From the NCBI GenBank assembly GCA_009693055.1, contig SHYA01000001.1, positions 186,001-250,000 of the forward strand: DNA of 64,000 nt, given 5' to 3'. This document shows positions 30,102 to 63,660 of the stretch, one piece after another (position 1 is the stretch's first letter; every line of letters starts with the position of its first letter). The translations under genes were made by a program, and so were the position numbers. The stretch comes from Dehalococcoidia bacterium (lineage in GTDB: Bacteria > Chloroflexota > Dehalococcoidia > Lucifugimonadales > SHYT01). Under the pieces are notes generated by a model, which was not told the origin of the DNA, did no database searches, and saw nothing but the letters and a program-made list of their open reading frames with translations.

Positions 30102-30473
30102 ATGCGCATTTTCGTTGACATAGACAACACGCTGCTCGCCTCGTCGGAGAGCGAGTGGGCGCTCCGTCCCGGCGCATGCGAGGTGCTGGCCGCGCTCCAG
30201 GGCCACGGCCACGCGGTGTACCTCTGGTCCGCCACGGGGCGCGCGCACTGCCAGCGCATCGCGGAGCACTTTGGGCTCCAGCCCTTCATCACCGAGTACT
30301 TTGACAAGGACCCGGACTGCCCTATCAAGCCTGACCTGATTGTGGACGACGACTGGTACCTGGTGCAGAAGTACTCCGGCGTGCTGGTCACCCCCTTCCG
30401 CGAACCGGACCCGAACGACCGGGAGCTGTACAAGGTGCTGGCGCACGTGGGCATTCCGATCCCAACGAGTTGA
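30102..30473 (+). CDS. Small HAD-like phosphatase
   Basis: 123 residues with the HAD signature FVDIDNTLL (nucleophile Asp near residue 6 and general acid Asp two residues on), motif II SATG and motif III/IV around KPDLIVDDDWYLV. Cap domain absent (C0 type). Function is probably a small phosphatase or an inactive relative. GAAGAGGTTGCA before the ATG is a good ribosome binding site. Closely followed by ABC transporter genes. Confidence 0.82.
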   Translation: MRIFVDIDNTLLASSESEWALRPGACEVLAALQGHGHAVYLWSATGRAHCQRIAEHFGLQPFITEYFDKDPDCPIKPDLIVDDDWYLVQKYSGVLVTPFREPDPNDRELYKVLAHVGIPIPTS

Positions 30474-30482
30474 CATGCGCAC

Positions 30483-31451
30483 ATGATGAACGCCATCGTC
30501 GTTGACCATCTGCACAAGCGCTTCCGCGCCGTGGAGGCCGTCAAGGACGTCTCCTTTACGGTCGCGGAGGGTGAGGTGTTCGGTTTCCTCGGCCCCAACG
30601 GCGCGGGAAAGACGACCACCATCAACATCCTGTGCACGCTGCTTGCGCCAACCTCGGGGACCGCGCTGGTCAACGGCTTTGACGTCGCCCGCCAGCAGAG
30701 CGAGGTGAGGCGCTCCATCGGCCTCGTCTTTCAGGAGACGACGGTGGACGACTACCTGACCGCGGAGGAAAACCTGAGGTTCCACGCCAGGGCGTACCGG
30801 CTGCCGCGCGACGTGTGGGTGGGGCGCGCCGAGGAACTGCTGCGCCTGGTTGACCTGTGGGACCGCCGCCATGACCGGGTGCGCACCTTCTCCGGCGGCA
30901 TGAAGCGCCGCCTGGAGCTGGCCCGCGGCCTGCTCGTCCGGCCACGCGTCCTCTTCCTGGACGAGCCCACGCTGGGGCTGGACCCGCAGACCCGCCGCCA
31001 CATCTGGGACTACCTGCTCCAGGTGCGCCGCAACGAGGCACTCACGGTCTTCCTGACCACGCATTACCTGGAGGAGGCCGAACACTGTGACCGCGTCGCC
31101 ATCATTGACCACGGGCAGATTGTTGCTCTGGACACCCCTGAGCACCTCAAGGCCGCCGTCGGAGGGGGCGTGGTGACTATCCGCGTGGAGGACCAGGCCC
31201 TGGCTCTGGAAGAACTGCAGACCCGCTTCGGCCTGGCGCCGGTGGTGCTGGACGGCGCAATTCAGTTCAACGTCCCGAGCCCCGAGGAGTTCCTGCCGGA
31301 GTTCATCCGCGCGTTTGCTGTCCCTCTGAACTCGGTGAGCATCCACCGCCCCACGCTTGAAGACGCGTTCGTGAAGCTTACGGGCCACGCGATCCGCGAT
31401 GACGCGCCCGCCGCCAGCACCTACGCCCGTGTCCGCATGCGGATGAGGTAA
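30483..31451 (+). CDS. ABC-2 type exporter ATP-binding protein (DrrA-like)
   Basis: 322-residue nucleotide-binding subunit at the inner face of the membrane. GPNGAGKTT (Walker A near 40), Q-loop VFQET, signature FSGGMKRRLELARGL, Walker B VLFLDEPTLGLDP, and switch His in LTTHYLEEAEH. The C-terminal ~80-residue domain is typical of the DrrA/CcmA group that exports drugs, lipids or polysaccharide. The permease partner begins 2 bases downstream. Confidence 0.94.
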   Translation: MMNAIVVDHLHKRFRAVEAVKDVSFTVAEGEVFGFLGPNGAGKTTTINILCTLLAPTSGTALVNGFDVARQQSEVRRSIGLVFQETTVDDYLTAEENLRFHARAYRLPRDVWVGRAEELLRLVDLWDRRHDRVRTFSGGMKRRLELARGLLVRPRVLFLDEPTLGLDPQTRRHIWDYLLQVRRNEALTVFLTTHYLEEAEHCDRVAIIDHGQIVALDTPEHLKAAVGGGVVTIRVEDQALALEELQTRFGLAPVVLDGAIQFNVPSPEEFLPEFIRAFAVPLNSVSIHRPTLEDAFVKLTGHAIRDDAPAASTYARVRMRMR

Positions 31452-31453
31452 GC

Positions 31454-32284
31454 ATGAGCGAGGTGTTCACCGGCTTCTGGGTCATCGCCCATCGTGAGCT
31501 GCTCCGGCTCCTGCGAGAGCGCGCGCGGCTCGTCTCCACGTTCGCCATCCCTATCTTCACGCTGATCATCTTCGGCGCCGGCTTCAATCGGATTGTCACG
31601 GATCTGGACTCGGACGTAGACCTGGTGCAGTTCATGTTCCCCGGCGTGGTCTGCATGGGCGTAGCCGTCACGTGTATGTTCGCCGGGCTGTCGGTGGTCT
31701 GGGACCGGGAGTTCGGCTTCCTCAAGATGGTGCTTGTCGCGCCATTGAACCGCATCGGGGTGGCCCTGGGCAAGGCTGCCGGTGGAGCCGCGGTGGCAAC
31801 GGTTCAAGGACTCATCATCCTGGCCTTCATGCCGGTCGTGGGCCTTTCCCTAGACGGCCTCGCATTCCTCAAGCTCTTCCTCGTGCTGATCTTGATGGCG
31901 GCAACCCTCTCCTGCCTCGGCATCCTGGTCGCCTCGCGCATGCGCTCCCAGCAGGGTTTCCACGGCGTGGTGGAGATGTTGCTGTTCCCGCTACTGTTCT
32001 TCTCAGGCATCTTCTTCCCTGTGGACAGGGTGCCAACTTGGCTGGGCGTTATCGCCAAGCTCAACCCCATCACGTACGGCGTGGACGCCGCACGCCAGGT
32101 GGTGCTCGAGTCGCAGGCGGGCTCAGCGCTCGCCGGCAACGCACCGCTGAGCGCCGGCAACGGCGCGCTGGGCGTAACGGTGTTCGGGCACACGATGGCC
32201 GTGTGGGAGGACGCGCTCGTCCTCGCCGCGTTCGGCGTAGTGGTCGTCGTGACGGCGGCGTGGTCGTTCAGCCGCCAGGAGTGA
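31454..32284 (+). CDS. ABC-2 type exporter permease (DrrB-like)
   Basis: 276 residues with six predicted membrane helices and the ABC-2 signature region FPLLFFSGIFFPVDRVPTWLG plus LNPITYGVDAARQ near residues 180-215. Partner of the ATP-binding protein immediately upstream; together a homodimer-type exporter of unknown substrate. The stop is followed four bases later by the selenocysteine-type peroxiredoxin gene, suggesting one operon. Confidence 0.92.
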   Translation: MSEVFTGFWVIAHRELLRLLRERARLVSTFAIPIFTLIIFGAGFNRIVTDLDSDVDLVQFMFPGVVCMGVAVTCMFAGLSVVWDREFGFLKMVLVAPLNRIGVALGKAAGGAAVATVQGLIILAFMPVVGLSLDGLAFLKLFLVLILMAATLSCLGILVASRMRSQQGFHGVVEMLLFPLLFFSGIFFPVDRVPTWLGVIAKLNPITYGVDAARQVVLESQAGSALAGNAPLSAGNGALGVTVFGHTMAVWEDALVLAAFGVVVVVTAAWSFSRQE

Positions 32285-32288
32285 ACCG

Positions 32289-32780
32289 ATGGCACAGCAG
32301 AGTCGAACGGTCTCTGTGGGCTCCACCGCGCCCGGCTTCACACTGGAATCGGCGAGCGGCGGCCAGGTCTCCCTCTCCGACTTCCGGGGCAAGCGCTGCG
32401 TCGTTTTGGTCTTTCTCCGCGGGTTCGCTTGACCGTTCTGCCGAAGGCACCTCCGCCAGTTGGCGGAGCAGCACCGAGAGTTCCTCGAGGCCGGCGCGCA
32501 GGTCCTGGCCATCGTCCACGACTCACCCCAGGCAGCCAGGGCGTTCCTGGCGCAACACCCGTCGCCCTTCCCGCTCCTGCTAGATGCCACCCACGCCCTC
32601 TTTGAGCAATACGGAGTAGAGAGCAAGCTCGCCTCTCTGGGCCAGCGGCCTGGCCTCTTCGTCATTGACAGCGAGGGAGTGGTGCGGTTTACTCACCTCG
32701 GAAGGCAGCAGTGGGAGATCCCGTCCAACCCGGTCGTCCTGGAAGAGGTGCGTTGCCTTCCCTGCGAGGCAACACGGTGA
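32289..32780 (+). CDS. Peroxiredoxin-like (AhpC/TSA) selenoprotein, Sec at codon 48 (TGA)
   Basis: A thioredoxin-fold protein of 163 residues if TGA 32430-32432 is read as selenocysteine. Reading MAQQSRTVSVGSTAPGFTLE, then VLVFLRGFA-U-PFCRRHL; relatives have Cys at the U, the first Cys of CPFC. After the TGA the same frame continues with normal family sequence (LAEQHREFLEAGAQVLAIV, then GLFVIDSEGVVRF) to a real TGA stop at 32778. A SECIS-like hairpin with loop AGUU follows at 32451-32468. The expected role is reduction of peroxides or disulfides. The stop overlaps the GTG of the next gene. Standard gene callers will split it. Confidence 0.85.
32451..32468 (+). promoter_or_regulatory. Candidate bacterial SECIS element (peroxiredoxin-like gene)
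   Basis: CTCCGCC-AGTT-GGCGGAG: perfect 7-bp stem, 4-base loop with G second. The loop starts 25 bases after the TGA, within the 16-37 range of the published bacterial SECIS consensus. Confidence 0.7.
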
Positions 32781-33477
32781 CAGAAAACGCGATGGCCACC
32801 TACCTCAGCGAAGGCGCCTCGCTCCACGCCTACCTGGCAAGGCCCACAGGCAGCGGCCGTTCCCGGCGGTGGTCGTCATCCAAGAGCTGTTCGGCCTGAA
32901 CGACAACATCCGGCGGATCGCCAACCGGCTCGCCGGCGAGGGGTACATTGCCCTCGCGCCAAACCTGTATTCCCGCCCGGGCGGGTTCGGCCGTTTCTGC
33001 GTGACCAGTCTGATGAAAGCGATGCTGAACAACGGCGTGGAGCAGCAGCCGGTGCGGGACCTGAAGGCGGCGGTGGCCTACCTCCAGCAACAGCCGTTCG
33101 TGCACGCCGAGCGCATCGGCGTGACCGGCTTCTGCATGGGCGGCGGCTATGCCATTCTGTTGGCGTGCGCCTCCGACCAGGTGAAGGGCAGCGTGGCCTT
33201 CTATGGCCGCAACCCCTCGCCGATTGACGCCGTGGCGAACATCCGCTGCCCGCTCCTCTACCCCTACGGCGCGTCTGACCGGCTCGTCCGCGGCGGCGTT
33301 CCCAAGCTGAAAGAGGCGCTGAAGCGGCAAGGCAAGCAGTACGAGGTCAAGGCGTACCCCAACACCGGCCACTCGTACATGAACGACTCGCGGCGCAGCT
33401 ACCGGCGCGACGTGGCTGAGGGCTCGTGGAAACACCTGCTCGCCTTCTTCGGCGAGCACTTGAAGGAGACGCCATGA
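32777..33477 (+). pseudogene. Dienelactone hydrolase family gene with a -1 frameshift
   Basis: The N-terminal frame starts at GTG 32777 (MTENAMATYLSEGASLHAYL, then ARPTGSG). The remaining frame gives PFPAVVVIQELFGLNDNIRRI, the active-site Cys in GVTGFCMGGGYA, an Asp in YGASDRLV and a His in NTGHSYMND, a complete DLH triad. The frames meet at about 32857 (ggcagcggccgttcc), where one C appears to be missing. Restored length would be ~233 residues, normal for the family. Either a sequence error or a recent mutation. Overlaps both neighbouring redox genes by 4 bases. Confidence 0.8.
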
Positions 33478-34091
33478 ACATGCCCATCAAGCTCACCGTC
33501 TACTCCGACTACATCTGACCCTTCTGCTACATCGGCCTGGAGCGGGTCGATAGGATGCAGCAGGAGTTTGAGGTCCAGGTGGAATGGCGCCCGTACGAGC
33601 TCCACCCAGAGATCCCTCCGGAAGGCAAGCCGCTGGAGGAGCGGTCGCGCCTCGGCTTCAGCCGGATCCTCGCGATGGCGAAGGAGGCCGGGCTGGAGAT
33701 GAGCCCGCCCCCGCGCATTGCGAACTCTCGGCTGGCCCTTGAGGCCACCGAGTTCGCCAACGCGCAAGGCAATGGCGGCGCGTTCCACCGTGCCGTTTTT
33801 GAAACCTACTGGCGGCGCGGCCTGAACATCGGGCAGCAGGCAGTCCTCCTCCAGCTCGCCGATGAGGCCGGCCTTGACCGCGAGGCGTTGCGCCAGGCGC
33901 TGCAGCAGGGAACGTACCGCGAAGTGCTGGAGCGAAAACTGGGAGAGGCCCGGAAGACGGGCGCCAACGGCGTCCCGGCGTTTGTCTTCAACGACCGGTA
34001 CCTCGTGACGGGCACGCACCCGTACGAGGTGTTCCGGAACTTCATTGCGGAGCGGCTGCTCAAGGAGCGGGACGAACCTCGCTCACCCTGA
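33474..34091 (+). CDS. DsbA/FrnE-like oxidoreductase selenoprotein, Sec at codon 15 (TGA)
   Basis: 205 residues if TGA 33516-33518 is selenocysteine. The start MNMPIKLTVYSDYI-U-PFCYIG corresponds exactly to the DYxCPFC active site of FrnE-type DsbA proteins, with U replacing the N-terminal Cys. The rest is normal for the family: EWRPYELHPEIPPEG, helical insertion, GREAL-like helices, cis-Pro loop GVPAFVFNDRY. No signal peptide, so probably cytoplasmic disulfide or glutathione-type chemistry. The ATG overlaps the DLH stop (ATGA). A SECIS-like stem-loop follows at 33531-33551. Confidence 0.87.
33531..33551 (+). promoter_or_regulatory. Candidate bacterial SECIS element (DsbA-like gene)
   Basis: ATCGGCC pairs with GGTCGAT (one G-U pair) around the loop TGGAGCG, G second in the loop. 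The loop begins 20 bases after the TGA. Confidence 0.55.
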
Positions 34092-34096
34092 ACTTG

Positions 34097-34163
34097 CCTG
34101 CCCTCGAGCGAAGCGAAGGGTCGAAGGGCGCACCCTCATGGTTCGACAAGCTCACCACGGGCG
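34097..34163. repeat. Interspersed repeat remnant (TCGACAAGCTCA family)
   Basis: Contains CCTGCCCTCGAG, AGCGAAGGG, TCGAAGGG and GGTTCGACAAGCTCACC, motifs that recur at 40018-40090 and 63631-63660. Non-coding, between the DsbA-like gene and the VOC pseudogene. Confidence 0.6.
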
Positions 34164-34184
34164 GTTGAAGATGCTGCACGCCGC

Positions 34185-34542
34185 CTAGCTGCGCGGGACC
34201 TCTGACATCAGCGCCATCGTGTCCCCCTCCGTGTCTCAAAAGAAGGCCATCCACAGCGCGTGGTCCGGCATCTCGGCGATGACGTGCGACTCGTTGCGGA
34301 ACCGGACGCCACGTGCCTTGAGCGTCCCAAAAGTGGCCGGTAGGTCCGCCACCTTGAAATAGAGGATAGGGCTTGCACGGTCAAACTCCCGATCAGAAAG
34401 TTCCGGCATGAGCCGCACGCCGTTGCAATTGAAGAAAGTCAAGCGTGTCCCGGTAAAAGCCCACCGCCCGCAGGGGATCCTTGACCGGCACCGCGATCTG
34501 GCCGATGTGCGCTAAAGTCAATCCTGCCCCTTGTTGCACCAT
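34185..34542 (-). pseudogene. VOC-family (glyoxalase/bleomycin-resistance-like) pseudogene
   Basis: The N-terminal frame starts at ATG 34542 and gives IGQIAVPVKDPLRAVGFYRDTL. A deletion of about a dozen codons and a frame change then lead into NCNGVRLMPELSDREFDRAS, ILYFKV, and PDHALWMAFF. There a TGA replaces what should be Arg, followed by DTEGDTMALMSEV and a TAG at 34185. Two independent lesions make this a genuine pseudogene. The TGA is not at a Cys position and is not a selenocysteine candidate. Confidence 0.82.
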
Positions 34543-34603
34543 TGCTTCCCTCCCGCGCTGCTAAAACACCAACGTGTCCTTGAGCCGTTGTCGCTACGCG
34601 CCC

Positions 34604-35300
34604 TCACGGCTCCCGCGCTACCACCAACGCCCACACGCGCTTTGCTCCGCTCTCCAAGAGCGCCGCCGCGCACGCGTCCAGTGTTGCGCGGTGGTGCACA
34701 CGTCATCTAGTAGCAAGACGCGCTTGCCCGCCAGGGCTGCGCCACGACAGGAGAAGGCCCCCGCTACGGCGGCATGCCTGGCTGCCGCGTCACTGGCGCG
34801 CGCCTGGGGTGGCGTGGCCCGCGACCGGACCAGCGTGCGCCTGTCTACCGCCACTTGCAGGAGCTGGCCTAGCTCCTCGGCAAGGAGCGCCGCCTGGTTA
34901 TATCCGCGTTGTCGCTCGCGAGCGGCGTGCAGCGGCAACGGCACCAGGATGTCCGGCACAAAGCCGCTCCCATTCAGGGTGACCGCCAGCGGGCGCGCCA
35001 GCCATCATATTTCAGGCGGTGCACCATCTCGCGTGCCGCGCCCTGCATCAGAAACGTCGCGAGGACGCGCTCCACGGCCAGAGGCGCCTGCTCGCAGCGA
35101 GGACACAGCGAGCCCCTCAGAGCGACTGCGGCCGCCCCAGGGAACGGTTGCGCGCAGCGGACACACAGCGGCGGCTCCAGCCGCCCAAGCAGTCCGGAGC
35201 AGCCGTCGCACAGCCACGCACCGGGCTTCCGGCACATCGCGCACTGCGGAGGAAATACCACGTCAAGGGCGGCGTGGTAAAGCCACCTCACTCTATTCAC
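34604..35300 (-). pseudogene. comF: comF-type phosphoribosyltransferase pseudogene
   Basis: The N-terminal part has the ComF zinc region (VFPPQCAMCRKPGAWLC, then LCVRCAQPFPG and LCPRCEQ) and reaches MVHRLKYDGWRA, where about 15-20 codons are lost and the frame changes. It resumes with PDILVPLPLHAARERQRGYNQ. The PRPP motif LLLDDVCTT is then broken by a missing G, after which the third frame continues family-like (LDACAAALLESGA, ALVVAREP) to a TGA at 34604. ComF normally aids DNA uptake. Two lesions, one a deletion, make inactivity likely. Start approximate (GTG 35300 or 35291). Confidence 0.8.
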
Positions 35301-35404
35301 GGCTGTTATGCTGGACTCAGTCTCTGACCTGACCCCCATTGATTCCACCTGCGCGGCGTCGCGCCTTGTGTTGTTCCGTTGGCGGACTGCTAAGATTCTA
35401 CTTG

Positions 35405-36130
35405 ATGAGCAAAGAGCCGGCGTTGCCGGGTGTGAAGGCGGTCTTCTTCGACCTGTTCAACACGCTCGCGCGCTTCTGGCCGCCGCGCGAGGAAGTACAG
35501 GCCCAGGCGTGTCAGGCGTTCGGCATCGCGCTTGACACGTCGCGGGTGGACCTGGGCTACGCGGAGGCGGACGCCTACATGACGCGCGAGAACTCCTCTG
35601 CGCCACTTCGAACACGCACCAACGCGCAAACGGACGCCTTTTTCGCCCGGTACGAACAGATCATCTTGAAGGGCGCGGGGGTTGACGTGGACCTGGCCGT
35701 TGCCGGTCAGGTCTGGCAACGGGTGCGACAGATCCCTTACGGCCTCACCCTCTTTGACGACGTGCTGCCTTCTCTAAGACGGCTGCGCCAAAAGGGGCTT
35801 GTCCTGGGGATGATCTCCAACCTGAACCGGCCGGGTGACGCGCTGACCAAGGAGCTTGGCCTGACGGGGACGCTCCACTTCGCGGTGACCTCGTTTGAAG
35901 CGCAGGCGGAAAAGCCGGACGCGGCTATTTTTCAGGCGGCGATAGAGCGGGCGGGCGTTCCCGCCTCGGAGGCCGTTCACGTCGGCGACCAGGTCTCCTC
36001 CGACGTAGAGGGGGCCAGAGGCGCTGGAATCCGGCCCGTGCTCATGGACCGCTACGGGACCGGACCCCGAGCCGCCGGCTGCCCCGTAGTCCACTCCATG
36101 GTAGAGTTGGAACGTCTCCTGGACCCATAG
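35405..36130 (+). CDS. HAD-superfamily hydrolase
   Basis: 241 residues, HAD subfamily IA with helical cap. Motif I is KAVFFDLFNTLARF (nucleophile Asp near residue 16), motif II MISN, motif III KPDAAIFQAA with Lys, motif IV VGDQVSSDVEGARGAG. Likely a phosphatase of small phosphorylated metabolites. The start at 35405 is chosen because the family begins shortly before motif I; the in-frame ATG at 35339 adds odd sequence. Lies next to the ArsC-like selenoprotein gene, 26 bases apart. Confidence 0.88.
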   Translation: MSKEPALPGVKAVFFDLFNTLARFWPPREEVQAQACQAFGIALDTSRVDLGYAEADAYMTRENSSAPLRTRTNAQTDAFFARYEQIILKGAGVDVDLAVAGQVWQRVRQIPYGLTLFDDVLPSLRRLRQKGLVLGMISNLNRPGDALTKELGLTGTLHFAVTSFEAQAEKPDAAIFQAAIERAGVPASEAVHVGDQVSSDVEGARGAGIRPVLMDRYGTGPRAAGCPVVHSMVELERLLDP

Positions 36131-36156
36131 CGTCAACCCTTGACACGAGGGAAAGG

Positions 36157-36504
36157 ATGAACGCAGAGGCCAGGTTCTACGGCTACTCCCGCTGAGCGAC
36201 CTGCAAGAAGGCGCGGGAGTTCCTCGCGCGCAAAGGGGTCGCCGTCCAAGAGCGGGACTTCTTTCAGCTGCCGCTCACCGAAGTGGAACTGCGGGGCCTG
36301 CTGCACGGAAGGCCGGCCTCGGACGCCTTCTCCTGGAGGTCGCCATCGGTCAAGGCGCTGGGGCTGGAGGGTAAGCGCCTGAGCGACGCGGAGCTGGTCC
36401 AGTGGATGCTCAAGGAACCGAGGCTCATCAAGCGACCGATCCTGGTGCTCAAGGGGACAGTGTTCTTCGGGTTCCGGCCCGCGGAGCTTGAGGCGCACCA
36501 GTGA
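36157..36504 (+). CDS. ArsC/Spx-like selenoprotein, Sec at codon 13 (TGA)
   Basis: 115 residues when TGA 36193-36195 is read as selenocysteine: MNAEARFYGYSR-U-ATCKKAREFL. The family has Cys at this place (CxxC, as in Spx, or Cys of ArsC). The same frame continues as a normal ArsC-type thioredoxin-fold protein (KGVAVQERDFFQLPLTEVEL, then LLKEPRLIKRPILVLKG with the conserved Arg) to a TGA stop at 36502. AGGGAAAGG precedes the ATG. A SECIS-like hairpin follows at 36211-36229. Arsenate reduction versus another thiol reaction is open. Confidence 0.86.
36211..36229 (+). promoter_or_regulatory. Candidate bacterial SECIS element (ArsC-like gene)
   Basis: GCGCGGG-AGTT-CC-T-CGCGC: a 7-bp stem interrupted by one bulged T on the 3' side, with loop AGTT identical to the peroxiredoxin gene. 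The loop begins 23 bases after the TGA. Confidence 0.7.
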
Positions 36505-36518
36505 GGAGCGCGGAACGG

Positions 36519-37151
36519 CTAAAGCCGCGCTAGCGCTTCCCGAGGGTGCTGCCAGGCCATGTCAGGGGCCGTAGGGATGGTGTGCGGGGCCTTGCTGCCC
36601 CACAACGCGGCCGCAAACCCGACGCCCGCCTGTTGCGCGCACCGCATGTCGGCATGCGTGTCACCCACGTACAGCGCCTGCGACGGGTCCGAACCGAGGA
36701 CTTTGAGCACATGCTGCACGCCGTCCGGCTCCGGCTTAGCGCGTGCGACCTCGTCACCAAACGCATCAACGACAAAGGCGCGCCCAACCCCCGCCACAGC
36801 CAGCTCCGGGACGGCGGCCCAGCGCGGCTTGTTGGAGAAGAGTGCCAGGCGGTACCCCTTTTCCCTCAGTCCAACCAGCATCGCCTCCACTTTAGGGAAA
36901 AGGCTGCTCGTTGCGCGCCAACCCCGCTCGTAGTGGCCCAGGTAGCTCTGCGTCACCTCTTCGCTTCTGCCCGGAAACAGCTGCGTGATAATCTGGGCGA
37001 GGGGCAGGCCGTGGCACTCTGCAATGGCCTCACTCGTAGGGGCTGGGCACCCGGCCTGGGCGGCGGCGTACTGCAGCGCCTCCTCATGGGCCTGCCAGGA
37101 GTTCCAGAGCGTCCCATCCCAGTCAAAAATCACGACGTTGTATTTCTTCAT
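36519..37151 (-). CDS. HAD-family phosphatase (phosphoglycolate phosphatase/PpaX-like)
   Basis: 210 residues, HAD IA. Motif I VVIFDWDGTLWNSW (residues 5-18), helical cap, motif II LFSNK, motif III KPEPDGVQHVL, motif IV VGDTHADMRCAQQAG. Resembles Gph/PpaX-type phosphatases. Substrate unproven. The ATG at 37151 lies only about 10 bases after a TATACT box, so the mRNA may be almost leaderless; no ribosome binding site is seen. Convergent with the ArsC-like gene. Confidence 0.88.
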   Translation of the reverse strand: MKKYNVVIFDWDGTLWNSWQAHEEALQYAAAQAGCPAPTSEAIAECHGLPLAQIITQLFPGRSEEVTQSYLGHYERGWRATSSLFPKVEAMLVGLREKGYRLALFSNKPRWAAVPELAVAGVGRAFVVDAFGDEVARAKPEPDGVQHVLKVLGSDPSQALYVGDTHADMRCAQQAGVGFAAALWGSKAPHTIPTAPDMAWQHPREALARL

Positions 37152-37160
37152 CGGACGTTT

Positions 37161-37189
37161 AGTATACCGCAAACAGCGCTTCAGTACAA
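37161..37189 (-). promoter_or_regulatory. Promoter of the HAD phosphatase, near-leaderless
   Basis: Minus-strand TTGTAC (37189-37184), 17-base spacer, TATACT (37166-37161). Predicted start of transcription is within a few bases of ATG 37151. Confidence 0.5.
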
Positions 37190-63630: not shown

Positions 63631-63660
63631 CCGCTCATCCTGAGCCTGTCGAAGGATGGC
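63631..63660. repeat. Interspersed repeat copy (TCATCCTGAGCCTGTCGAAGG)
   Basis: Contains CTCATCCTGAGCCTGTCG followed by AAGGATGG, the form of a dispersed repeat also seen in pieces at 4961-4982, 34097-34163 and 40018-40090. Non-coding, between ffh and the last gene. Confidence 0.65.

Follow-up and report, generated by a model that had tools for sequence, protein, structure and literature searches.

Three genes for thiol-redox proteins, all within about 4.3 kb of the 64-kb stretch of DNA analyzed here (hereafter the window), each contain an in-frame TGA codon. Are they selenoprotein genes in which this TGA is read as selenocysteine (Sec), genes broken by mutation or sequencing error, or genes written in a code in which TGA has been reassigned? 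And, if they do encode selenoproteins, does their proximity reflect a common pathway? The window belongs to a MAG of 1.51 Mb in 11 contigs (94% complete, 7% estimated contamination), and the comparison set comprised 98 genomes of its order, distributed over 41 families.

Coding features of the three genes

Reading TGA as a residue opened three frames, encoding a Prx-like, a DsbA/FrnE-like and an ArsC/Spx-like protein (Table 1). In line with an earlier note on this DNA, each gene holds a single internal TGA, located where a UxxC active site begins, and continues in frame to a normal stop. Pfam matches run across the TGA in all three (AhpC-TSA, PF00578, E 6e-32; DSBA, PF01323, 2e-37; ArsC, PF03960, 6e-16). 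Standard annotation would call these genes truncated, a fault that the Sec reading repairs.

Table 1. Features of the locus, with positions in the window.
Feature	Position	Strand	Remarks
ABC exporter ATP-binding subunit (DrrA-like)	30483..31451	+	TIGR01188 drrA over cut-off; PF00005; first gene of the predicted operon
ABC-2 type permease (DrrB-like)	31454..32284	+	PF01061 E 2e-35; TIGR01247 below cut-off
Prx-like (AhpC/TSA) selenoprotein	32289..32780	+	Sec at codon 48 (RGFA-U-PFC); stop TGA
Prx-like gene, Sec codon TGA	32430..32432	+	
Candidate SECIS, Prx-like	32451..32468	+	7 bp, CTCCGCC-AGTT-GGCGGAG; 25 nt from UGA
Dienelactone hydrolase family protein	32776..33477	+	PF01738 E 8e-55; GTG start 32776
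DsbA/FrnE-like selenoprotein	33474..34091	+	Sec at codon 15 (DYI-U-PFC); stop TGA
DsbA/FrnE-like gene, Sec codon TGA	33516..33518	+	
Candidate SECIS, DsbA	33531..33551	+	ATCGGCCTG-GAG-CGGGTCGAT; about 9 bp; 21 nt from UGA
Two genes, VOC/glyoxalase-like and ComF-like	34190..35348	-	Both apparently frame-disrupted
HAD hydrolase	35405..36130	+	PF00702 E 1e-19; directly upstream of ArsC
ArsC/Spx-like selenoprotein	36157..36504	+	Sec at codon 13 (YSR-U-ATC); stop TGA
ArsC/Spx-like gene, Sec codon TGA	36193..36195	+	
SECIS, ArsC	36211..36229	+	GCGCGGG-AGTTC-CTCGCGC; 7 bp; 22 nt from UGA

The terminal stop is also TGA in all three genes (32778, 34089 and 36502 for Prx-like, DsbA and ArsC, respectively), so that the same codon would serve as Sec and as stop within one gene. 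This bears on a reading in which TGA encodes Cys, Trp or Gly throughout the genome and selenium is not involved. The opening of the frames once TGA is read as a residue would fit such a code, but besides the three terminal stops, TGA is the stop codon of 66 among 261 long ORFs found over 450 kb, the same 450 kb hold no other plausible read-through TGA except that of selD, and tRNA-Sec and SelB are present. TGA stop usage thus refutes reassignment, which we consider vanishingly improbable. The 64-kb window and about 390 kb of additional genome sequence, covered by a screen that may miss short N-termini, yielded no further convincing Sec-TGA apart from that of selD. A stop at 30471, from which the frame runs on into the ABC gene, was judged not to mark a selenoprotein.

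The Prx-like protein combines an AhpC/TSA domain with a UxxC motif (UPFC); it is devoid of the TxxC peroxidatic motif and more aptly called a thiol:disulfide oxidoreductase with the AhpC/TSA fold. Among its PDB matches are AhpE-type peroxiredoxins (Rv2238c) as well as ResA, and its best NCBIfam match, the SelL-related NF040769, is under cut-off (88 vs 120 bits). The second protein likewise joins a DSBA domain to UPFC, and its best PDB match is FrnE (5cp1). Its active site lies just 15 residues from the start, where a signal peptide would not fit, and the protein is apparently cytosolic.

The ArsC/Spx-like protein, starting at ATG 36157, falls below the curated cut-offs of both NF041106 (ArsC-like (seleno)protein; 22.4 vs 85 bits) and TIGR01617 (Spx/MgsR; 70.2 vs 75.05 bits). 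With a profile of its orthologues, Spx structures score highest (82 bits for 3l78 and 78 for 3gfk), while the arsenate reductase 1i9d trails them (43 bits), and an RRP or KRP motif close to the C-terminus hardly varies. Both observations would suit a selenium-based Spx transcription regulator with the U-x-x-C pair as its redox switch. Against this stand the score of the window protein under the Spx/MgsR cut-off and the fact that the fold is common to YffB-type thiol reductases, and we consider such a regulator quite unlikely. Still less probable is an extension of it, in which a Sec-based Spx-type switch would sense oxidants and regulate transcription, with the neighboring Sec-Prx and Sec-DsbA as its effectors.

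Selenocysteine machinery

The earlier note had made its claim depend on a Sec machinery elsewhere in the genome, taking the absence of one as refutation. The same genome encodes SelB, a tRNA-Sec with anticodon UCA, SelA (560 bits) and SelD (387 bits). SelD itself carries an in-frame TGA (HCAG-U-AAK); SelD proteins with Sec form a well-known family (PMC13188914). The machinery is found on contigs C6-C9 and the window on C11, with G+C contents that agree (0.66-0.69). A dispersed short repeat (TTCGACAAGCTCA / TGAGCTTGTCGAA) has copies at 34142, just after DsbA, and at 63641; it also occurs inside the selB coding region (L001 2759; VLSLSKD), and scattered copies are present elsewhere in the genome.

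SECIS hairpins

Each TGA is followed by a stem-loop, as had been noted earlier. The bacterial SECIS model calls for a loop of 3-9 nt, a G in the first two loop positions and a distance of 16-37 nt after the UGA (PMC13188914). All three hairpins conform to it, with spacings of 25, 21 and 22 nt and loops AGTT, GAG and AGTTC for Prx-like, DsbA and ArsC, respectively. Taken one by one, they are modestly better than synonymous recodings of the same stretches (P = 0.11 for Prx, 0.003 for DsbA and 0.08 for ArsC), and the case is made by conservation across relatives.

For ArsC, five of the seven stem pairs change on both sides among 29 orthologues, and 92% of the stem's cells are paired. The same orthologues hold 23 double-changed cells where 4.6 are expected; the covariation score was reached by none of 500 shuffles, and slid controls collapse. 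The Prx-like hairpin has changed bases in one relative (L053) with its pairing kept (CTGCGCC-GGTT-GGCGCAG). A test for covariation in the DsbA hairpin found none, the stem being conserved in sequence. In all three genes, conservation is higher in the codons right after the UGA than in the remainder (p = 0.019 for DsbA, 0.016 for ArsC and 0.007 for Prx), and the Cys forms that were read show nothing comparable to the hairpin at the corresponding site. A search of Rfam gave no SECIS family match.

Conservation of the TGA codon and Sec/Cys exchange

Across the 98 genomes, the TGA is kept in 43 of 44 DsbA matches, one of which also contains a TAG, and in 57 of 62 ArsC matches, two of the five exceptions being C-terminal fragments without the site. 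For Prx, all 15 matches at E<=1e-18 have it, three of them at about 58% identity. In loci read from relatives, the TGA aligns with the Sec position of the window.

These counts decide on the possibility that the genes are simply broken and their TGAs nonsense mutations or sequencing errors. The neighboring minus-strand VOC-like and ComF-like genes, which appear frameshifted, speak for it. However, dozens of independent genomes share this TGA at the catalytic column, the frames are intact on both sides of it, and the ArsC SECIS covaries. Chance nonsense mutation, already thought unlikely in the earlier note, is refuted by conservation across the order, and we regard broken genes as hardly credible.

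The Cys/Sec exchange at the TGA column that had been envisaged was also found. Genome G002, from the same family as the window genome, has no SelB and carries Cys at this column in both DsbA and ArsC; in G042, ArsC has Cys despite the presence of a SelB fragment. A third genome, G032, lacks SelB, and its ArsC frame contains no stop. For Prx, the order search returned Sec forms alone, and Cys-type relatives are present in Pfam and the PDB.

TGA in ArsC and SelB occur together in 54 genomes; one genome has TGA without SelB, one SelB without TGA and two neither, an association (Fisher p = 0.005) that rests on few exceptions and is calculated without regard to kinship. No SelB was detected in G021, G027 and G089, yet these have TGA orthologues; all three are incomplete MAGs (74-92% complete), and SelB is presumably absent through missing contigs.

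SelB was found in 88 of the 98 genomes. Sec use is the norm in the order, and losses look scattered. In this uncultured order, Sec is the normal state of DsbA and of Spx-type ArsC, and the family of the window genome offers a natural Cys-type, SelB-less genus.

Genomic organization and synteny

The genes for the ABC ATPase, permease, Prx, hydrolase and DsbA are separated by 2-4 nt or overlap through GTGA/ATGA: the dienelactone hydrolase gene overlaps the Prx stop (GTGA), and its own stop overlaps the DsbA start, ATG 33474 (ATGA). From this spacing, exporter, Prx, dienelactone hydrolase and DsbA would form one packed operon carrying two Sec genes, and HAD-ArsC a second plus-strand unit past the minus-strand VOC-like and ComF-like genes. 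Since DsbA and HAD-ArsC are separated by these two genes, the cluster is one of 2+1, in two transcription units; it does not place all Sec genes in a single unit of the Tso/SAO-like kind.

The names VOC and ComF rest partly on reading of the sequence, Pfam backing the ComF zinc ribbon only. Both genes (34190-35348) are split between two frames, which suggests decay or assembly indel errors; in G002, ComF is single-frame. Three different HAD-type phosphatases occur inside 7 kb (30102-37172).

The earlier note had suggested a seleno-redox module next to an ABC exporter. Do the three selenoproteins, the exporter and the hydrolase form a dedicated module of this kind, serving one shared pathway? 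The tight operon with its overlapping starts and stops would fit, and three Sec genes inside about 4.3 kb are improbable by chance (7.5e-5 to 3e-3 for 4-10 genes placed randomly in a genome of this size). Moreover, the sister genus G001 keeps the gene order, Prx-DsbA-ComF-HAD-ArsC. Several layouts tell against it, in addition to the division over two transcription units. In G001, exporter and hydrolase are missing; G002, with the layout exporter-DsbA(Cys)-ComF-HAD-ArsC(Cys), retains the exporter next to Cys forms and has no Prx; and in both G008 and G044 each of the three genes, Prx, DsbA and ArsC, sits on a different contig. What stands of the proposal is that the tight grouping is unusual; the module itself is weakly supported, and we hold it to be unlikely.

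In G001, Prx and DsbA are separated by about 550 nt (L096 10011-10558) that hold no recognisable gene, in the place of the dienelactone hydrolase. The adjacency of HAD and ArsC is kept in both G001 and G002. In family f41, DsbA and ArsC are about 9-14 kb apart; out of four genomes examined there, three have a related HAD gene adjoining DsbA. The grouping is thus stable within a single family and does not amount to a module of the whole order. The proximity of the three Sec genes is inherited synteny of that family, and the ABC exporter is probably just an operon neighbor. The order is well suited to work on Sec/Cys exchange and on the co-localisation of selenoproteins.

Proposed decoding and function

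We are almost certain that the three are genuine selenoprotein genes, which the ordinary bacterial Sec system would decode. SelD would supply selenophosphate, and SelA would convert Ser-tRNA-Sec to Sec-tRNA-Sec. SelB, bound to the SECIS hairpin that follows the UGA at a distance of 21-25 nt, would then deliver Sec at that codon, the terminal UGA being read as stop. The Prx-like and DsbA/FrnE-like proteins are probably co-expressed with the ABC-2 exporter and the dienelactone hydrolase, and the ArsC/Spx-like protein would be made from the adjacent HAD-ArsC unit. By analogy with UxxC chemistry in Trx-fold enzymes, the selenol would attack a substrate disulfide or an oxidant, the Cys at +3 would resolve the Se-S bond, and a thioredoxin-type system may recycle the three proteins. 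Their most likely role, as far as it can be predicted, is in cytosolic thiol-redox and oxidant defence.

Comparison with known selenoprotein systems

All three families are already known to use selenium, and the tight grouping alone is unusual. The statement in the earlier note that they are known from marine metagenomes agrees with the catalogued Prx-like 1, DsbA 1 and Arsenate reductase 2 (PMC2398784). The UxxC selenoprotein Prx-like 1 (pfam00578) was described from the GOS and Sargasso Sea metagenomes (PMC2398784, PMC1088965). It shares the AhpC/TSA domain, the UxxC active site and a downstream bacterial SECIS with the Prx-like protein of the window, whose gene differs in its apparent operon with an ABC-2 exporter, a dienelactone hydrolase and Sec-DsbA. 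DsbA 1, or DsbA-like form 1, is likewise a UxxC selenoprotein (pfam01323; PMC2398784, PMC13188914). Both it and the window DsbA have a DSBA domain with a UPFC/UPWC active site; the latter is FrnE-like, apparently cytosolic and in Sec form across nearly the whole order. The counterpart of the window ArsC belongs to cd03032, which we take to be the Spx-type ArsC domain, and both place UxxC at the catalytic site of an ArsC-family fold. This counterpart is the UxxC selenoprotein Arsenate reductase 2 (PMC2398784). From ArsC-like NF041106, on the other hand, the window protein is distinct (22 bits vs a cut-off of 85).

In the literature searched, no report of the Prx-DsbA-ArsC combination of Sec genes was found. 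Selenoprotein operons as such are known, namely Grd, Prd, SAO and Tso, as are neighboring pairs, Prx/SelW and Prx-like/AhpD-like (PMC13188914, PMC2398784), and larger selenoprotein operons are listed in a 2026 review (PMC13188914). Like these operons and pairs, the window has several Sec genes side by side; it differs from them in its gene set and in the division over two transcription units, and a shared pathway would be putative.
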